From: an uncultured Bacteroidales bacterium
GTDB taxonomy: Bacteria > Bacteroidota > Bacteroidia > Bacteroidales > Bacteroidaceae
DNA: 33,842 nucleotides
Assembly (NCBI GenBank): GCA_902792555.1
Contig: CADAZW010000014.1
Location: 1 to 33,842 of the forward strand
Direction: 5' to 3'
Shown here in pieces: positions 4,660-15,362 of the stretch. Position 1 is the first letter of the stretch, and each line of letters begins with the position of its first letter. Under the pieces are notes generated by a model, which did not search any database, was not told where the DNA came from, and was given only the letters and a program-made list of their open reading frames with translations. The translations under genes were made by a program, and so were the position numbers.

Positions 4660-5292
4660 ATGCTAGGCTTTCTGAAGAAGCTGTTTTCCTGTCCCTGCCA
4701 CACGGAGGAAACTTCAAATCCCCAAGAGATGAACTATCTGGTTGTTGGGCTCGGTAATATAGGCAACGAGTATTCGGGCACACGCCACAATATTGGATTT
4801 ATGGTATTGGATGCCCTTGCCGGGGCATCCAATATTGCTTTTGAGGATAAGCGTTACGGTTTCGTGGCAGAGATGAGGCTGAGGGGACACAGGGTGACTC
4901 TCCTCAAGCCTTCCACATATATGAACCTCAGCGGCAATGCTGTGCGCTACTGGGTGAAGCAGAAGAAGATAGAGCCCGAGCGCCTGCTGATAGTCAGCGA
5001 TGACATTGCCCTGCCTTTTGGCACGCTGCGGATGAAGCCCTCCGGCAGCGAGGGAGGCCACAATGGTCTGAAGAGTATCACCCAGTGTCTGGGCTCCAAC
5101 CAGTATGCTCGCCTGCGTTTTGGCATAGGCAATGAGTTTGCCAGGGGCCATCAAGTGGACTTCGTCCTCAGCAAGTTTACCGACGAGGAGAGTGCTGCCA
5201 TGGCCGAGCGTCTGCAGCAGGCAGGCGAGGCCGTGAAGGCTTTTGTGCTCAGTGGCGTGCAGTTTGCCATGAACAATTATAACAACAAATAA
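4660..5292 (+). CDS. pth: peptidyl-tRNA hydrolase
   Basis: Pth cleaves peptidyl-tRNA released by stalled or aborted ribosomes and so recycles tRNA. The family core begins at NYLVVGLGNIGNEYSGTRHNIGF, which contains the catalytic His of the TRHN motif. LKPSTYMNLSG, the DDIALPFGTLRMKPSGSEGGHNGLKSI block and LRFGIGNE follow, all diagnostic. From the ATG at 4660 it is 210 aa and carries a 23-residue extension (MLGFLKKLFSCPC...) before the core; the ATG at 4729 would give the standard ~187-aa enzyme. I keep the longer start but cannot decide. A perfect 12-bp hairpin (4805-4834) lies inside the reading frame. Confidence 0.95.
   Translation: MLGFLKKLFSCPCHTEETSNPQEMNYLVVGLGNIGNEYSGTRHNIGFMVLDALAGASNIAFEDKRYGFVAEMRLRGHRVTLLKPSTYMNLSGNAVRYWVKQKKIEPERLLIVSDDIALPFGTLRMKPSGSEGGHNGLKSITQCLGSNQYARLRFGIGNEFARGHQVDFVLSKFTDEESAAMAERLQQAGEAVKAFVLSGVQFAMNNYNNK
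4805..4834. repeat. perfect 12-bp inverted repeat inside pth
   Basis: TATTGGATGCCC (4805-4816) and GGGCATCCAATA (4823-4834) are exact reverse complements around a 6-nt loop. An upstream copy of part of the left arm, CAATATTGGAT (4788-4798), can also pair perfectly with ATCCAATATTG (4827-4837), giving two competing hairpins in the 5' part of the coding region. Confidence 0.75.
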
Positions 5293-10165: not shown

Positions 10166-11197
10166 TTATAACAATTCTATCAGTTTGTCGACGTCCTCGG
10201 GGTTGGTGGCCCACGAGGTGGCGAAGCGTATGGTCACGCGGTCGCCGTGGGGTGGTTCCCACTGATCGTAGGTGAGATGTTTGCGGAATGCTTCTGCCTG
10301 GCTGAGGCTGACTTCCACAAACTGCTGGTTGGTGGGGGATAGGTAGGGCAGTTTGTACCCCTTGTCCTGCAGAGCCTTGCGCAGGCGCATGGCTTCTGTG
10401 ATGGCATGGCGGCATCCTTGGTAATAGAGGGTGGCGGTCAGGGTGTCGCCCTCCAGCAGGGTGTCGAACTGCATGGCTGTTATCCATCCCTTGGCGATGA
10501 GGGCTCCGTGGCGCTTGATGTGGGTAAAGAAGCGTGAGTCGGGCTTGGGGCGCGGTATCACGGCTGCCTCTCCAAACATCGTGCCGCACTTAGTGCCGCC
10601 AATATAGAAGGCATCGCACAGGCGGGCAATATCTGCGAGAGTTATGTCTGTGGCTGCAAGGGCATAGCCGAGGCGTGCTCCGTCGAGGTAGAGGGGTATG
10701 TTGTGTTTGCGGCACACTGCGCTAAGCTGCTCCAGCTCGCTGAGCGAATAGAGGGTGCCGTACTCGGTGGGCTGAGTGATATATACCATGCCCGGGGGCA
10801 CGATGTGCGGCCAGTTGGGGTCGCTGTAGTAGGTGGTGATGTAGTCGTCCACCTGCTCTGCGCTTATTTTGCCCTCTTTGGCGGGCAGAGGCAGCACCTT
10901 GTGCCCTGTGAACTCAACGGCTCCCGACTCATGGATGGCGATGTGGCCGCTCTCTGCGCACACCACTCCCTCAAAGGAGCGAAGCAGAAAGTTTATCATC
11001 ACCATGTTGGTCTGTGTGCCGCCGCAGAGAAACTGTACCTCGGCATCGGGGCACTGGCAGAGGCGGCGCACTTTCTCGCGTGCCGACTGGCTGATGGCGT
11101 CGGTGCCGTAGCCGGAGAATTGGCGGTTCTGCATCTCTTGCATCCGCTGCAGTATGAGCGGATGGCAGATGTTCATGTAGTCGCTATCGAAGTGCAT
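10166..11197 (-). CDS. ltaE: low-specificity L-threonine aldolase
   Basis: This is a PLP-dependent fold-type I enzyme that splits threonine or allo-threonine into glycine and acetaldehyde. The 343-aa protein shows the family landmarks: NDGYGTDAISQSARE-like opening (GYGTDAISQSAREKV), LCGGTQTNMVMINFLL, the Asp of LDGARLGYALAA that holds the PLP ring, and the PLP lysine in IGGTKCGTMFGEA. Its first codons overlap the end of tyrA by 14 bp, so it is translated with the aromatic operon although threonine breakdown is not part of that pathway. It might provide glycine or remove beta-hydroxy amino acids. Confidence 0.92.
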   Translation of the reverse strand: MHFDSDYMNICHPLILQRMQEMQNRQFSGYGTDAISQSAREKVRRLCQCPDAEVQFLCGGTQTNMVMINFLLRSFEGVVCAESGHIAIHESGAVEFTGHKVLPLPAKEGKISAEQVDDYITTYYSDPNWPHIVPPGMVYITQPTEYGTLYSLSELEQLSAVCRKHNIPLYLDGARLGYALAATDITLADIARLCDAFYIGGTKCGTMFGEAAVIPRPKPDSRFFTHIKRHGALIAKGWITAMQFDTLLEGDTLTATLYYQGCRHAITEAMRLRKALQDKGYKLPYLSPTNQQFVEVSLSQAEAFRKHLTYDQWEPPHGDRVTIRFATSWATNPEDVDKLIELL

Positions 11198-11960
11198 TTG
11201 CTTTTATTCTTTTTATAAAGGCGGTGAGGCGGTCAGCGTCTTTGTGGTCAATGATGTCGATGAGGCTCTTGAGTTCCTCGCGTATCTTGCTTACCTGGGG
11301 CAGGGTGTTGGGATTGAAGAGTATCTCGCGCAGCAGGGTCTCGTCTTCGTTGAGCACTCCCTTGGCAATGGCCATGTGGCGCTTGAAGGTGGTGCCCGGT
11401 GCGTCCTGCGGCTTCATGACAGCAGCGAAGACGAAGGTGCTGACGAAGGGAATGCTCAGCGAGTATGCCACTATCTCGTCGTGCTCCTCGAAGGAGTATT
11501 CGCAGATGTGGAGGCCGAGCTTCTGGTAGAGGTCCTTGAAGAAGATGCGTCCCATGTAGTCGCCGTCGGTGATGATGATGGCGTTCTCATTGCTCAGCGC
11601 GCCGAGGTTTGCGAAGGTGGGGCCGAACATGGGGTGGGTGCTGACGAAGGGGTGGCCGCACTGCTTGTAGTAGTCGAAGAAGTCGGTCTTCACCGAGGCG
11701 ATGTCGCTTAGTATGCAGTGGCTGGGCAGGTGCGGCTCTACCTGGCGGAAGACGTCAAGGGTATGCTTGAGCGTTACGGCGTTGATGACGAGGTCGGGCT
11801 GGAAGGCATCAATCTCGTCCATCGAGGTGAAGCGCTGGGTGTTGTACATAAAGCGCAGTCGCCTGGCGTCGATGTCGAAAACTGCTGTTTCATGCTCAAA
11901 GCTGAGCAGGTCAACGAAGAATGAGCCCATCTTGCCGGCTCCGAGAATTAGGATTTTCAT
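11184..11960 (-). CDS. tyrA: prephenate dehydrogenase
   Basis: The enzyme oxidatively decarboxylates prephenate to 4-hydroxyphenylpyruvate, the step that commits to tyrosine. The NAD(P)-binding Rossmann motif is at the N-terminus (ILILGAGKMGSFFVDLL with GxGxxG, then VFDID), and SDIASVKTDFFDYY followed by FVSTHPMFGPTFA is the typical substrate-binding block with the conserved His. The C-terminal half is all-helical, as in TyrA dimers. At 258 aa it has neither a fused chorismate mutase nor an ACT domain. Chorismate mutase activity comes from the gene just upstream. Confidence 0.93.
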   Translation of the reverse strand: MKILILGAGKMGSFFVDLLSFEHETAVFDIDARRLRFMYNTQRFTSMDEIDAFQPDLVINAVTLKHTLDVFRQVEPHLPSHCILSDIASVKTDFFDYYKQCGHPFVSTHPMFGPTFANLGALSNENAIIITDGDYMGRIFFKDLYQKLGLHICEYSFEEHDEIVAYSLSIPFVSTFVFAAVMKPQDAPGTTFKRHMAIAKGVLNEDETLLREILFNPNTLPQVSKIREELKSLIDIIDHKDADRLTAFIKRIKANALR

Positions 11961-12026: not shown

Positions 12027-13091
12027 TTATTTGTTTATTATCTCCATCTGCTGGCGCACGCTCTCTTCGTGGATGTGCTCAAAGATGTTCTTTACACACT
12101 CAGGGGCGATGCCGAGCAGCGAACCCTGTGCACCGCGCTTGTCGAGAATCTCGGTGTAGCGCTTGGGCTGCACGATGGTCATGCCCTTCTCCTTCTTGTA
12201 TTCACCCATCTTGCGTGAGATGCGCATACGGCGGGCGAGCAGCTCGATGAGGTCGTTGTCCACCTCATCAATCTTCTTACGCAGCGAGGCGAGGTCCTCG
12301 CCGAGGTCCACCTTCTCGCGTATCACGAGCATTGAGAGGATGTAGTCGAGTATGTCGGGCGTAACCTGCTGTGCGGCGTCGCTCCATGCATCGTCGGGCG
12401 AGCAGTGGCTCTCCACGAGCAGTCCGTCGAAACCGAGGTCCATGGCCTGCTGGCAGAGCGGAGCGATGAGGTCGCGGCGTCCGCCGATATGGCTGGGGTC
12501 GCAGAAGATGGGCAGGGCAGGGATTCGGCGGTGCAGCTCAATGGGTATTTGCCACATCGGGGCATTGCGGTAGAGTTTCTTCTCATAGCTGGAGAATCCG
12601 CGGTGCACGGCAGCAAGGCGAGTGATGCCTGCTCCGTTGATGCGCTCCAGTGCGCCGATCCACAACTCGAGGTCGGGATTGACGGGATTCTTGACCAGCA
12701 CGGGCACATCCACGCCCTTGAGCGAGTCGGCGAGCAGCTGCATGGCAAAGGGGTTGGCACTGGTACGGGCACCTATCCATAGGATATCGATGCCGTACTT
12801 GAGAGCCAGCTCCACATGCTCCGGCGTGGCTACCTCGGTGGCTACGAGCATGGCTGTCTCCTCTTTCACTCGCTTCATCCAGGGCAGGGCTTTCTCGCCG
12901 TTGCCTTCAAAGCCGCCCGGCTTGGTGCGTGGTTTCCACACGCCGCCTCTGAACATGTGGCAGCCCTTGCCGGCGAGCTGCTTGGCGGTAGTTATCACTT
13001 GCTCCTCGGTCTCGGCGGAGCAGGGTCCTGCAATTACGAACGGGCGAACATTGTCGCTAGGCAGGTTGAGGGGTTGTAAATTTAGTTCCAT
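12027..13091 (-). CDS. bifunctional DAHP synthase/chorismate mutase (type II)
   Basis: One polypeptide carries the first enzyme of the shikimate pathway and the branch-point enzyme to Phe and Tyr. The DAHP synthase domain (about 1-255) is of the KDO8P-synthase-like type I-beta class: FVIAGPCSAETEEQV, MFRGGVWKPRTKPGGFEG, DILWIGARTSANPF, LVKNPVNPD, FCDPSHIGGRRDLI and LVESHCSPDDAWSDA. The AroQ chorismate mutase domain (about 265-350) shows LRKKIDEVDNDLIELLARRM and KGMTIVQPKRYTEIL. The DAHPS-first order with a C-terminal mutase is usual in Bacteroidota. Fusion puts entry and branch point under one control, here also set by the upstream attenuator. Confidence 0.95.
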   Translation of the reverse strand: MELNLQPLNLPSDNVRPFVIAGPCSAETEEQVITTAKQLAGKGCHMFRGGVWKPRTKPGGFEGNGEKALPWMKRVKEETAMLVATEVATPEHVELALKYGIDILWIGARTSANPFAMQLLADSLKGVDVPVLVKNPVNPDLELWIGALERINGAGITRLAAVHRGFSSYEKKLYRNAPMWQIPIELHRRIPALPIFCDPSHIGGRRDLIAPLCQQAMDLGFDGLLVESHCSPDDAWSDAAQQVTPDILDYILSMLVIREKVDLGEDLASLRKKIDEVDNDLIELLARRMRISRKMGEYKKEKGMTIVQPKRYTEILDKRGAQGSLLGIAPECVKNIFEHIHEESVRQQMEIINK

Positions 13092-13121: not shown

Positions 13122-14315
13122 TCAATTCTTCAGCTCTTCAATTCTTTGTAGTGCTTCTTGCATCTTCTCCTTCTTGGCACATAGGGAGATGCGTATGTAG
13201 CGTTGTCCGTTGCTGCCGAAGATGAAGCCGGGGGTGATGAACACGTGCGCCTCGTTGAGCACTCGCTCTGTCAGTTGCTCGCAGTCCTGGTAGTTGTCGG
13301 GGATGCGGCCCCAGAGGAACATGCCCACTTGGTTGGGGTTGTAGGTGCAGCCGAGGGTGGTCATAATCTGCTCAGCAATGTCGCGGCGCTCACGGTAGAG
13401 GGTGATGTTGGCCTGCTCATGCCACTGAGCGCTGTTCTGGTAGGCTTGAGCTGCGGCGAGCTGCAAGGGGCGGAAGGTGCCGGAGTCGATATTGGATTTC
13501 ACTTTGAGTATCCACTGCACGAACTGGCTGTTGGTGGCGAGCATGCCCACGCGCCAGCCGGGCATGTTGTGGCTCTTGCTCATCGAGTTGAACTCAATGC
13601 AGCAGTCCTTGGCGCCGTCCACCTGCAGCAGGCTCAGTGGCTGGGAGTTGAGGATAAAGCTGTAGGGATTGTCGTTGACCACTACGATGCCGTGGTCCTT
13701 GGCGAACTTCACCAGCCGTTCGTAAGTTTTCATCTGCGCATTGGCTCCCGTCGGCATATTGGGATAGTTGGTCCACATCAGTTTGACGCCGCTGAGGTCC
13801 ATCTGCTCCAGCTGACCAAAGTCGGGTTGGTAATCGTTGGCCTCGTTGAGGTCATAGTTCACTACCTGGCACCCCAGCAGCTTAGTGAGTGAGGTGTAGG
13901 TGGGGTAGCCGGGATTGGGCACAAGCACCTTGTCGCCCACATTGGCCAGGGCAAGGGTGGTATGCAGGATGCCTTCCTTGCTGCCGATGAGCGGCTGTAT
14001 CTCGGTCTGCGGATTGAGCTCCACGCCGTACCAGCGCTTGTACCAATCGGCCATCGCCTCGCGCAGCTGCGGTATGCCCACCGTGGGCTGGTAGCCGTGG
14101 ACGTCGGCTTTCTGTGCCTCGCGGCACAGGGTGTCGATAGTTTCCGGCGAGGGTGGCATGTCGGGGCTGCCGATGGCAAGGCTGATAATGTCTTCGCCCT
14201 CGGCATTGCGGCGGGCAACCTCCTTCAGCTTGCGGCTGAAGTAGTATTCGCTGACCAGGCTTAGGCGGTCGGCGGGTGTGAACTCAATTTTCGTACATTT
14301 ATTTGTAGGCTTCAT
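13122..14315 (-). CDS. class I/II aminotransferase, probably aromatic/prephenate-pathway
   Basis: This is a PLP aminotransferase of fold type I, 397 aa. It shows ISLAIGSPDMPPS, the LIGSKEGILH loop, VLVPNPGYPTYTS, MWTNYPNMPTGA, VVNDNPYSFI and the PLP lysine in FNSMSKSHNMPGWRVGML, with the C-terminal Arg in YIRISLCAKKE. By sequence type it belongs with LL-diaminopimelate/aspartate-like aminotransferases. Its position between prephenate dehydratase (17-bp overlap) and DAHP synthase suggests transamination of phenylpyruvate and 4-hydroxyphenylpyruvate, the last step to Phe and Tyr. A role in lysine synthesis is the alternative. Confidence 0.9.
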   Translation of the reverse strand: MKPTNKCTKIEFTPADRLSLVSEYYFSRKLKEVARRNAEGEDIISLAIGSPDMPPSPETIDTLCREAQKADVHGYQPTVGIPQLREAMADWYKRWYGVELNPQTEIQPLIGSKEGILHTTLALANVGDKVLVPNPGYPTYTSLTKLLGCQVVNYDLNEANDYQPDFGQLEQMDLSGVKLMWTNYPNMPTGANAQMKTYERLVKFAKDHGIVVVNDNPYSFILNSQPLSLLQVDGAKDCCIEFNSMSKSHNMPGWRVGMLATNSQFVQWILKVKSNIDSGTFRPLQLAAAQAYQNSAQWHEQANITLYRERRDIAEQIMTTLGCTYNPNQVGMFLWGRIPDNYQDCEQLTERVLNEAHVFITPGFIFGSNGQRYIRISLCAKKEKMQEALQRIEELKN

Positions 14316-15132
14316 ATTCTCCGAGGATTTTTATTTGTTTGATAAGCGGGCGGATGGCATCGATGCTCTGCAGGTAGCGGCTGTAGTTGTCGTAGGTCAG
14401 GTCAACGTAGAAGAGATACTCCCACTCGTGGCCTATGATGGGCAGCGACTGAATCTTAGTCAGGTTGATGTTGTAGAAGGAGAAGATGCTCAGCACCTGG
14501 CTCAGACTACCGCTCTCGTGGGGTACGGAGAAGACAATACTGCTCTTGTTGCTCTTGTACTTGTCTCTCATGTTGTCGGCTACGTAAGGGTCGGCCAGCA
14601 CAAGGAAGCGGGTGAAGTTGTGCTTGTTGTCCTCGATGGCCTCCTCCAGCACCTTCATGCCGTAGATGGGCGCGGCGTGCTTCGAGCAGATGGCGGCGCG
14701 GCCCTTGAGCTGTGCCTTGCTGATGTCGGCGGCGGCACCGGCGGTGTCGTCCGTCTCCACAATCTTCCAGCCGGGATGTTTCTGCAGGAAAGAGCGGCAC
14801 TGCATCAGTGCTACGGGGTGGGAGTTAACCTCGGTGATGTCGGCAGCCTCGTCGTCGGGCAGTACCAGCAGGCTATGCTCGATGTGCAGCTTATGCTCGC
14901 CCACTATGGTCATGTTGCTGTCGCGCAGCAGCTCATAGTTGTGCAGCAGGCTGCCGGCGATGGTATTCTCTATGGCCACTACGGCCAGCATCTCAGGGTC
15001 TTTCCTGACGGCCTCAAACAACTGCTCGAAAGTGTCGCAACAGGTCAGGCTTATCTCCTCTTCCTTAAAATAAAGGTGGGAGGCAATGTCGTGGAACGAT
15101 CCTTCAATTCCTTGTATGGCGATGTTCAACAT
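14299..15132 (-). CDS. pheA: prephenate dehydratase with ACT domain
   Basis: The enzyme converts prephenate to phenylpyruvate on the way to phenylalanine. The catalytic domain (about 1-180) has IAIQGIEGSFHDIAS, VVAIENTIAGSLLHNYELL, EHKLHIEHSLLVLP and the diagnostic NFTRFLVL with the catalytic Thr-Arg-Phe. The ACT domain (about 195-270) opens SSIVFSVPHESGSLSQVLSIF and runs to YLFYVDL. The ESRP motif that helps bind phenylalanine in E. coli PheA reads QSLP here, so feedback inhibition may differ. Unlike E. coli PheA it has no chorismate mutase domain. It is the first structural gene behind the Phe/Tyr attenuator. Confidence 0.95.
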   Translation of the reverse strand: MLNIAIQGIEGSFHDIASHLYFKEEEISLTCCDTFEQLFEAVRKDPEMLAVVAIENTIAGSLLHNYELLRDSNMTIVGEHKLHIEHSLLVLPDDEAADITEVNSHPVALMQCRSFLQKHPGWKIVETDDTAGAAADISKAQLKGRAAICSKHAAPIYGMKVLEEAIEDNKHNFTRFLVLADPYVADNMRDKYKSNKSSIVFSVPHESGSLSQVLSIFSFYNINLTKIQSLPIIGHEWEYLFYVDLTYDNYSRYLQSIDAIRPLIKQIKILGEYEAYK

Positions 15133-15155: not shown

Positions 15156-15196
15156 AAAAAGAAAAGTCCTGCTTCCTTGGTGTGAAGCAGGACTTT
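15156..15196 (-). terminator. attenuator terminator hairpin of the Phe/Tyr operon
   Basis: On the minus strand AAAGTCCTGCTTC (15196-15184) pairs perfectly over 13 bp with GAAGCAGGACTTT (15175-15163) around an 8-nt loop, followed by TTCTTTTT. It lies between the leader peptide and pheA, so it can stop transcription before the operon. Its 5' arm plus loop (15190-15179) is also an exact 12-nt complement of 15249-15238, the antiterminator arm at the end of the leader peptide. Confidence 0.92.
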
Positions 15197-15249
15197 CGTT
15201 ATGGTTCTCTGTAATGACTCAATACGGCACAGCCAATCTGCTTCACACC
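15179..15249 (-). promoter_or_regulatory. antiterminator pairing of the Phe/Tyr attenuator
   Basis: GGTGTGAAGCAG (15249-15238) is perfectly complementary to CTGCTTCACACC (15190-15179). The first arm covers the stop codon of the leader peptide. A ribosome that reaches the stop would mask it and let the terminator form. A ribosome stalled at the Phe/Tyr codons would leave it free to sequester the terminator's 5' arm. Confidence 0.85.
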
Positions 15250-15305
15250 CTTGAGGAGGCAAAGTAGTAATAGTAAAAGCCGAAAAACTGCACCTGAGAA
15301 ATCAT
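15243..15305 (-). CDS. Phe/Tyr leader peptide (attenuation sensor), 20 aa
   Basis: An ATG at 15305 opens a 20-codon frame ending in TGA at 15243. Its middle reads FFGFYYYYF: four Phe and four Tyr among nine residues, exactly the amino acids made by the operon that follows. It begins about 25 nt after the predicted transcription start and ends over the antiterminator arm. This is the arrangement of Phe and Trp leader peptides in enterobacteria. Here Phe and Tyr codons together would report both end products of the shared operon. Confidence 0.9.
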   Translation of the reverse strand: MISQVQFFGFYYYYFASSRV

Positions 15306-15332
15306 TTTTGCTGATTTTGTTCGTTTCGACTG

Positions 15333-15362
15333 CAAAATTAGAACAAAAAAATTAAAAACAAA
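15333..15362 (-). promoter_or_regulatory. promoter of the aromatic amino acid operon
   Basis: On the minus strand TTTG (15362-15359), an 18-bp gap and TAATTTTG (15340-15333) match the Bacteroidota consensus, the spacing being 1 bp short. It would start transcription near 15326, just ahead of the leader peptide. The remaining bases up to the CDP-alcohol phosphotransferase start at 15440 are AT-rich, and I see no clear plus-strand promoter in them. Confidence 0.75.

Follow-up and report, generated by a model that had tools for sequence, protein, structure and literature searches.

The locus analysed here raises the question of what a short reading frame rich in Phe and Tyr codons, and the hairpin behind it, are doing directly ahead of the genes of the phenylalanine and tyrosine branch in an uncultured Bacteroidales bacterium, and whether the two together form a switch that is read by the translating ribosome. 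All coordinates refer to the window, the whole stretch of 33,842 nucleotides that was analysed, and all features described lie on its minus strand.

A promoter box of the -7 type (TAATTTTG, 15333..15340, consensus TAnnTTTG) precedes a leader peptide ORF of 20 codons (MISQVQFFGFYYYYFASSRV, 15243..15305), which starts with ATG at 15305, ends with TGA at 15243 and has the core FFGFYYYYF. The putative antiterminator arm 2 (GGTGTGAAGCAG, 15238..15249) spans the leader stop codon, starting 4 nt ahead of it, and arm 3 (CTGCTTCACACC, 15179..15190), which takes in the 5' part of the terminator stem and the loop, is its exact 12-nt complement. The intrinsic terminator (15156..15196) consists of a 13-bp stem with 13 of 13 pairs Watson-Crick (AAAGTCCTGCTTC, 15196-15184, and GAAGCAGGACTTT, 15175-15163), an 8-nt loop (ACACCAAG) and a U-rich tail that runs to 15156; a terminator scan of the window called the same terminator, and found the stem to be terminator-like on the opposite strand too. 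In the predicted fold of the leader a further segment 1 (GGUGCAGUU, 15286..15294) pairs with 15234-15226, that is, with segment 2' (GGCUGUGCC, 15226..15234) directly 3' of arm 2, and an outer stem (15306-15299 with 15220-15213) is also present. Downstream, Pfam places pheA, encoding prephenate dehydratase (PF00800, PDT; 14299..15132), a class I/II aminotransferase (PF00155; 13122..14315), a DAHP synthase-chorismate mutase fusion (PF00793 DAHP_synth_1 and PF01817 CM_2; 12027..13091) and tyrA, encoding prephenate dehydrogenase (PF02153, PDH_N; 11184..11960). The box, the 20-codon ORF, the 12-nt arm, the 13-bp terminator and the four genes had all been listed in the first-pass annotation of the window, whose coordinates are right, and all were found again. 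The same gene order (pheA, aminotransferase, DAHP synthase-chorismate mutase, tyrA) occurs in 71 of 80 named loci, and the DNA examined for the other nine holds pheA and the aminotransferase (4) or these two with the fusion gene (5).

We compared the region upstream of pheA at increasing distance from the source organism. For the family, 151 genomes were searched, 128 had a PheA match and 110 were read upstream, one of which (L023) was too short; the 18 left out comprise 13 distant matches (31-34% identity), 2 weak and 2 fragmentary ones, and G011. For the order, 118 genomes were searched and 47 further genomes had a match, of which 45 were used, 2 partial genes being dropped, and one (L206) was too short. 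The 21 class loci, chosen for spread over families and genera, and the 14 loci of other classes were picked by hand (247 searched). A named set, which overlaps the family sample, is made up of the best 80 of 542 relatives found. Together 270 loci gave 245 leaders, 225 of them distinct; 223 have a hairpin, and folding was restricted to the 197 among them whose arm 2 is clear.

With a leader defined as an ATG-initiated ORF holding at least 6 F/Y in 10 codons and lying no more than 330 nt 5' of pheA, such an ORF precedes the gene at 101 of 109 loci in the family, 39 of 44 in the order, 20 of 21 in the class and 4 of 14 in other classes of the phylum. Under the same rule dinucleotide shuffles returned 3/1090, 4/440, 2/210 and 0/140, respectively, and the reverse strands 2 (of 109 in the family), 1, 0 and 0. 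Ahead of genes other than pheA in the 80 named loci, a laxer rule, with pheA excluded by its own coordinates, found an F/Y-rich ORF in only 2 of 314 cases. Of the 14 loci of other classes, the four that bear the leader have the best PheA matches; they lack the promoter box, and the remaining 10 have no leader.

Widening the search to 700 nt and any start codon raises the family count to 103/109, and one further family locus (L033) has leader and pheA joined in a single reading frame. In L148 (Alloprevotella sp. OH1205_COT-284, 4848-5001) an F/Y leader without a stop codon likewise runs in frame into pheA, with 327 codons to the first stop, so that the leader peptide appears to be fused to prephenate dehydratase in L148 and, over the same stretch, in L033. 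Five family loci have pheA and no leader (L088, L092, L097, L102 and L103). In L088 the gene lies directly behind trpA (3-689; PF00290, E 4.7e-67), as if pheA had moved behind the trp genes. The other four belong to one genus and their pheA shows lower identity (61-62%), while L013, L014 and L021 from the same genus carry the leader; replacement or relocation of pheA in the four is possible. Among the named relatives, which include strains of Prevotella, Alloprevotella, Prevotellamassilia and Xylanibacter, 76 of 80 have the leader by the strict rule. Three exceptions are L131, which is cut by a contig end with F/Y codons still visible, the fused L148, and L176, where the leader stands at -364; in the fourth, L156, there is no leader within 900 nt of pheA and the terminator-like hairpin is still there. 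In the source genome itself six consecutive F/Y codons occur, in some frame, at 17 places in ten loci, and in all ten a script found only the pheA leader to combine an ATG ORF of less than 60 aa with a strong hairpin behind it. The other runs were rejected as leaders, including a 25-aa ORF in L282 whose hairpin is weak.

Which amino acids such a leader would sense can be read from its codons. Phe occurs at least twice in 225 of 225 distinct leaders and Tyr at least twice in 221 of 225, with a mean of 4.2 Tyr per leader, and all four codons (TTT, TTC, TAC and TAT) are in use in the F/Y run. Other pyrimidine-rich codons are rare there (Ser 83, Leu 11 and Pro 6 of 2250), and F/Y codons number 8.1 per ten in frame compared to 2.6 and 1.6 in the other frames, a difference that is partly by construction, as leaders were picked by their in-frame F/Y content. 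The codon content favours a leader that senses Phe as well as Tyr, in keeping with the products of the operon, and these counts support the first-pass claim that one leader senses the two amino acids. We considered whether a single amino acid, most likely Phe, is truly sensed and the Tyr codons are passengers, as TTY and TAY differ by one base and the only leaders with fewer than two codons of either kind, 4 of 225, are short of Tyr and never of Phe. The abundance of Tyr across nearly all leaders and an operon that makes both amino acids speak against this, and we regard it as unlikely, though of the alternatives discussed here it survives best. Trp is also present in 27 of the 225 distinct leaders. 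In ten leaders (L005, L118, L213, L222, L229, L231, L239, L243, L244 and L247) a Trp codon falls among the last ten codons of the F/Y run, and might add Trp sensing for the shared DAHP synthase.

A hairpin that scores 20 or more and ends in a T-rich tail lies in 200 of the 225 distinct leader-to-gene stretches, compared to 10 of 1125 shuffles. When arms were paired within their own locus and then across swapped loci, own-locus pairing stood out with z 11.3 in the family (158 loci), 12.5 in the order (41) and 6.8 in the class (20), values that ignore kinship, and in each of the three the observed mean lay beyond all 150 permutations. Reversing one arm brings z down to 2.3, 1.8 and 0.9. The arm sequences change wholesale between families (CCCGC, CCTGC, CCCGT, CCCGG, CTCG and others) and most stay complementary; ten listed loci with leader and hairpin have no arm 2 by the arm-search rule. 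In the window's clade of 21 members, one column common to arms 2, 3 and 4 changes in step, the pair of arm 2 with arm 3 being GC in 14, AU in 4 and GU in 3, and that of arm 3 with arm 4 being CG in 14, UG in 4 and UA in 3. Over the whole clade alignment the paired cells and covariation score of 2:3 lie above all 500 shuffles, and pairs changed on both sides are no more frequent than in shuffles (229/500). The region upstream of pheA thus holds a reading frame made of codons for the operon's products, a terminator between it and the first gene, and a competing antiterminator with compensatory changes. A conserved F/Y-rich ORF with covarying arms, which the first-pass annotation had proposed to look for in relatives, is accordingly present in the family, the order and the class, and its reading of the locus as leader-peptide attenuation is supported by the ORF, the terminator and the coevolving antiterminator.

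RNAalifold on the 21 relatives recovered the terminator and a short stem between F/Y codons and arm 2. In clade alignment A1 (columns 74-79 with 93-98, window ~15266-15243) the last F/Y codons, CUUUAC, complement part of arm 2, GUGAAG, and are nearly invariant. In this clade the last F/Y codons may therefore have two roles, one in sensing and one in an upstream hairpin.

That same RNAalifold run did not recover the helix between segment 1, ahead of the F/Y run, and segment 2', just past arm 2, probably because segment 1 is poorly aligned, and for this reason we turned to a permutation test on unaligned segments. The two segments coevolve, with z 8.1 in the family, 5.3 in the order and 3.6 in the class when kinship is ignored, and in each group the observed pairing exceeds the best of 200 permutations. 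The signal drops when one segment is reversed (z 0.5, 1.4 and 0.7) or when the 5' flank is used instead (z -1.0, -0.9 and 1.6). In the window's clade of 21, none of 500 permutations reach the observed 1:2' mean, and partners as different as CTGTACG/CGTACAG, ACACGC/GCGTGT and ACATCAT/ATGATGT are found. A 9-pair register derived from the window leaves 46% of cells paired across the clade, a level that 7 of 500 shuffles reach; shuffles give 39% and shifted registers 27-42%, and pairs changed on both sides are not above shuffles (450/500). Taken alone, the upstream hairpin of the window does not stand out (z -0.36), being matched by 63 of 200 shuffles. When naked RNA is folded only through arm 3, the probability of 2:3 falls by more than 0.3 in 63 of 197 leaders, and shuffling the upstream part lowers this number to 12. 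Of the 63, 46 have arm 2 paired upstream of where the F/Y run ends and 17 have it paired downstream, and in many of the folds examined a segment ahead of the F/Y run pairs just past arm 2. What the sequences offer thus looks like a four-segment form that is supported by comparison with relatives and not by the window alone.

The distance between the last F/Y codon and arm 2 bears on where the ribosome would act. In leaders with a clear arm 2 (search zone 45 nt), the median gap is 11 nt in the family (136 leaders; interquartile range 10.75-12 nt), 12 nt in the order (36) and 9 nt in the class (11). The start of arm 2 relative to the stop codon, on the other hand, ranges from 42 nt before to 8 nt after it in the 136 family leaders. 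The leading edge of a ribosome lies about 12 nt past the first base of the A-site codon, a distance that agrees with these median gaps, and with that value an A site on the last Phe codon of the window puts the edge 1 nt short of arm 2. The narrow gap to the F/Y run set against the variable distance to the stop codon indicates a general rule set by the stall site and not by the stop site, and the overlap of arm 2 with the stop codon is a feature of the window's clade and some others.

These observations also speak against a simpler switch of three segments, in which there is no upstream hairpin and a ribosome resting at the stop codon masks arm 2. Such a design draws on the window itself, where arm 2 overlaps the stop codon and the upstream hairpin is no better than chance; the coevolution of segments 1 and 2' in relatives and the placement of arm 2 by the F/Y run, at widely varying distance from the stop, make it improbable. 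The first-pass annotation had described a layout simpler than the four-segment form with no separate 1:2 pause hairpin, which is not supported, given the coevolving upstream hairpin of the relatives, ordinary as that hairpin is in the window. Its proposal that arm 2 is masked at the stop codon fits this window and does not hold as a general rule.

We therefore return to the four-segment form, for which the following course of events is proposed. With Phe and Tyr plentiful, the ribosome would pass the F/Y codons and cover arm 2, leaving arms 3 and 4 to form the terminator. When either amino acid is short it would stall within the run, its front reaching almost to the 5' end of arm 2, where it would block the upstream pairing, so that 2:3 could form and RNA polymerase would read into pheA-tyrA. 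If the leader is not translated, the folds suggest that segment 1 would pair with 2' and enclose arm 2, and that the terminator would form.

Folding of the window leader, which assumes equilibrium and a guessed transcript start and is illustrative only, agrees with this scheme in part. The naked leader reaches -49.8 kcal/mol as 1:2 plus 3:4 and -41.2 kcal/mol with 2:3 forced. With a ribosome at codons 1-4 the terminator has a probability of 0.95-0.97, at codons 5-11 the antiterminator 2:3 is favoured or even (0.51-0.79), and at codons 16-21 the terminator returns (0.97). At codons 12-15, however, 3:4 takes 0.89-0.96 at full-length equilibrium, 2:3 being fully formed before arm 4 is made. Over the 197 leaders, a ribosome at the last F/Y codon gives 2:3 a probability of 0.95 before arm 4 and 0.21 after it, with 3:4 averaging 0.70. 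As equilibrium favours 3:4 with the ribosome at the end of the run, antitermination from there needs an assumed kinetic trap. Naked RNA made only through arm 3 has 2:3 at 1.00 at equilibrium in the window and at a mean of 0.67 over the 197 leaders, so that 1:2 must win kinetically.

A sigma-70 promoter scan of the window found no promoter, and a search for the box TAnnTTTG was used in its place. Of 159 family leaders, 143 have the box no more than 75 nt 5' of their ATG, with a median start at -36, compared to 6.5 after base shuffling; the corresponding counts are 28 of 41 in the order (1.8 shuffled), 12 of 20 in the class (1.6) and 0 of 4 in other classes (0.1). From its position in the window we infer a transcript start near 15328.

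Taken together, the locus very probably encodes a ribosome-mediated transcription attenuator of four segments, through which the charging of tRNA-Phe and tRNA-Tyr would control the operon of the Phe/Tyr branch. This reading is built on parts that are present and conserved, on two coevolving helices and on the narrow spacing of codons and arm, from which we infer stalling and read-through. A further role in trans for the terminated leader RNA or the peptide, for which peTrpL of Sinorhizobium is a precedent (PMC7298713), is very doubtful, as the alignments examined hold no pointer to it. Least credible of all is a plain terminator of another transcript with an accidental ORF, or an F/Y bias that is a by-product of a pyrimidine-rich RNA strand. 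In its favour are the terminator-like stem on the other strand, the pyrimidine richness of F/Y codons and the ability of the last of these to pair with arm 2 in the clade. Against it, shuffles, other genes and reverse strands hold almost no F/Y ORFs, few codons of the run stand for Ser, Leu or Pro, the promoter box is conserved just upstream, and the antiterminator coevolves.

On the wider scale we consider it likely that this is an ancestral attenuator of the Bacteroidia, with kin in some other classes, in which a mixed Phe/Tyr leader keeps some 11 nt between its last F/Y codon and the antiterminator arm, even as the sequences of the arms drift. If so, transcription and translation would be closely coupled in Bacteroidota. 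Such a switch requires a ribosome that stays close behind RNA polymerase, which makes the coupling directly testable. The literature searched gives no more than hints of leader-peptide attenuation in this phylum, and the locus offers a conserved attenuator that lends itself to experiments. An RNA family curated from the leader and its arms could serve to annotate a small ORF across many gut genomes, and a Phe/Tyr leader would, as far as we are aware, add Tyr to the amino acids sensed by attenuation.

As for known elements, no Rfam covariance model reached its gathering score in the window, and the seven matches at E <= 10 held no useful one. Phe_leader was not among the seven, T-box was found neither there nor at gathering score, and Thr_leader (RF00506) scored 20 bits (E 0.15), below its gathering score of 55. 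Bacteroid-trp (RF01692), which we take to be a Trp attenuator, was matched neither by this leader nor elsewhere in the source genome, and gave a match at E <= 0.001 in 2 of 31 genomes searched. It has been described as a Bacteroidota element that is probably cis-regulatory (PMC2864571). In Bacteroides thetaiotaomicron, sORFs reminiscent of leader peptides are mentioned (PMC7366714), and strong clues for leader-peptide attenuation before amino-acid operons were given in 2021 for Flavobacterium psychrophilum (PMC9723704). The first-pass remark that such attenuation is little described in Bacteroidota is therefore fair, although the field is not empty, given these clues and the Rfam entry RF01692. 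A mixed Phe/Tyr leader, or its spread through the phylum, was not described in the literature searched, most subscription papers lying outside it, and a search on mixed Phe and Tyr leader codons gave no match.

The flavobacterial work reports a structured element 5' of pheA, also in other Flavobacteriaceae and without an Rfam hit (PMC9723704). It shares the gene and the phylum with the attenuator proposed here, and differs in that its description, as far as consulted, names no peptide, Tyr or arms; it is probably the flavobacterial branch of the same attenuator.

The closest classical counterpart is the pheL-pheA attenuator of enterobacteria (Rfam Phe_leader), with which the present locus has in common a Phe-rich leader ORF, overlapping antiterminator and terminator, and control of pheA. 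Unlike pheL-pheA, it mixes Phe and Tyr codons, its operon adds tyrA, the DAHP synthase-chorismate mutase and an aminotransferase, and its promoter is of the Bacteroidota type. Leaders for several amino acids are known, with Thr and Ile in thrL and Ile, Val and Leu in ilvL, and they too place codons of several amino acids tied to the operon in a single leader; their amino acids are other than Phe and Tyr, and we know of no Phe and Tyr leader. The mechanism is thus classic, while the mixed Phe/Tyr specificity is unusual and its conservation wide.
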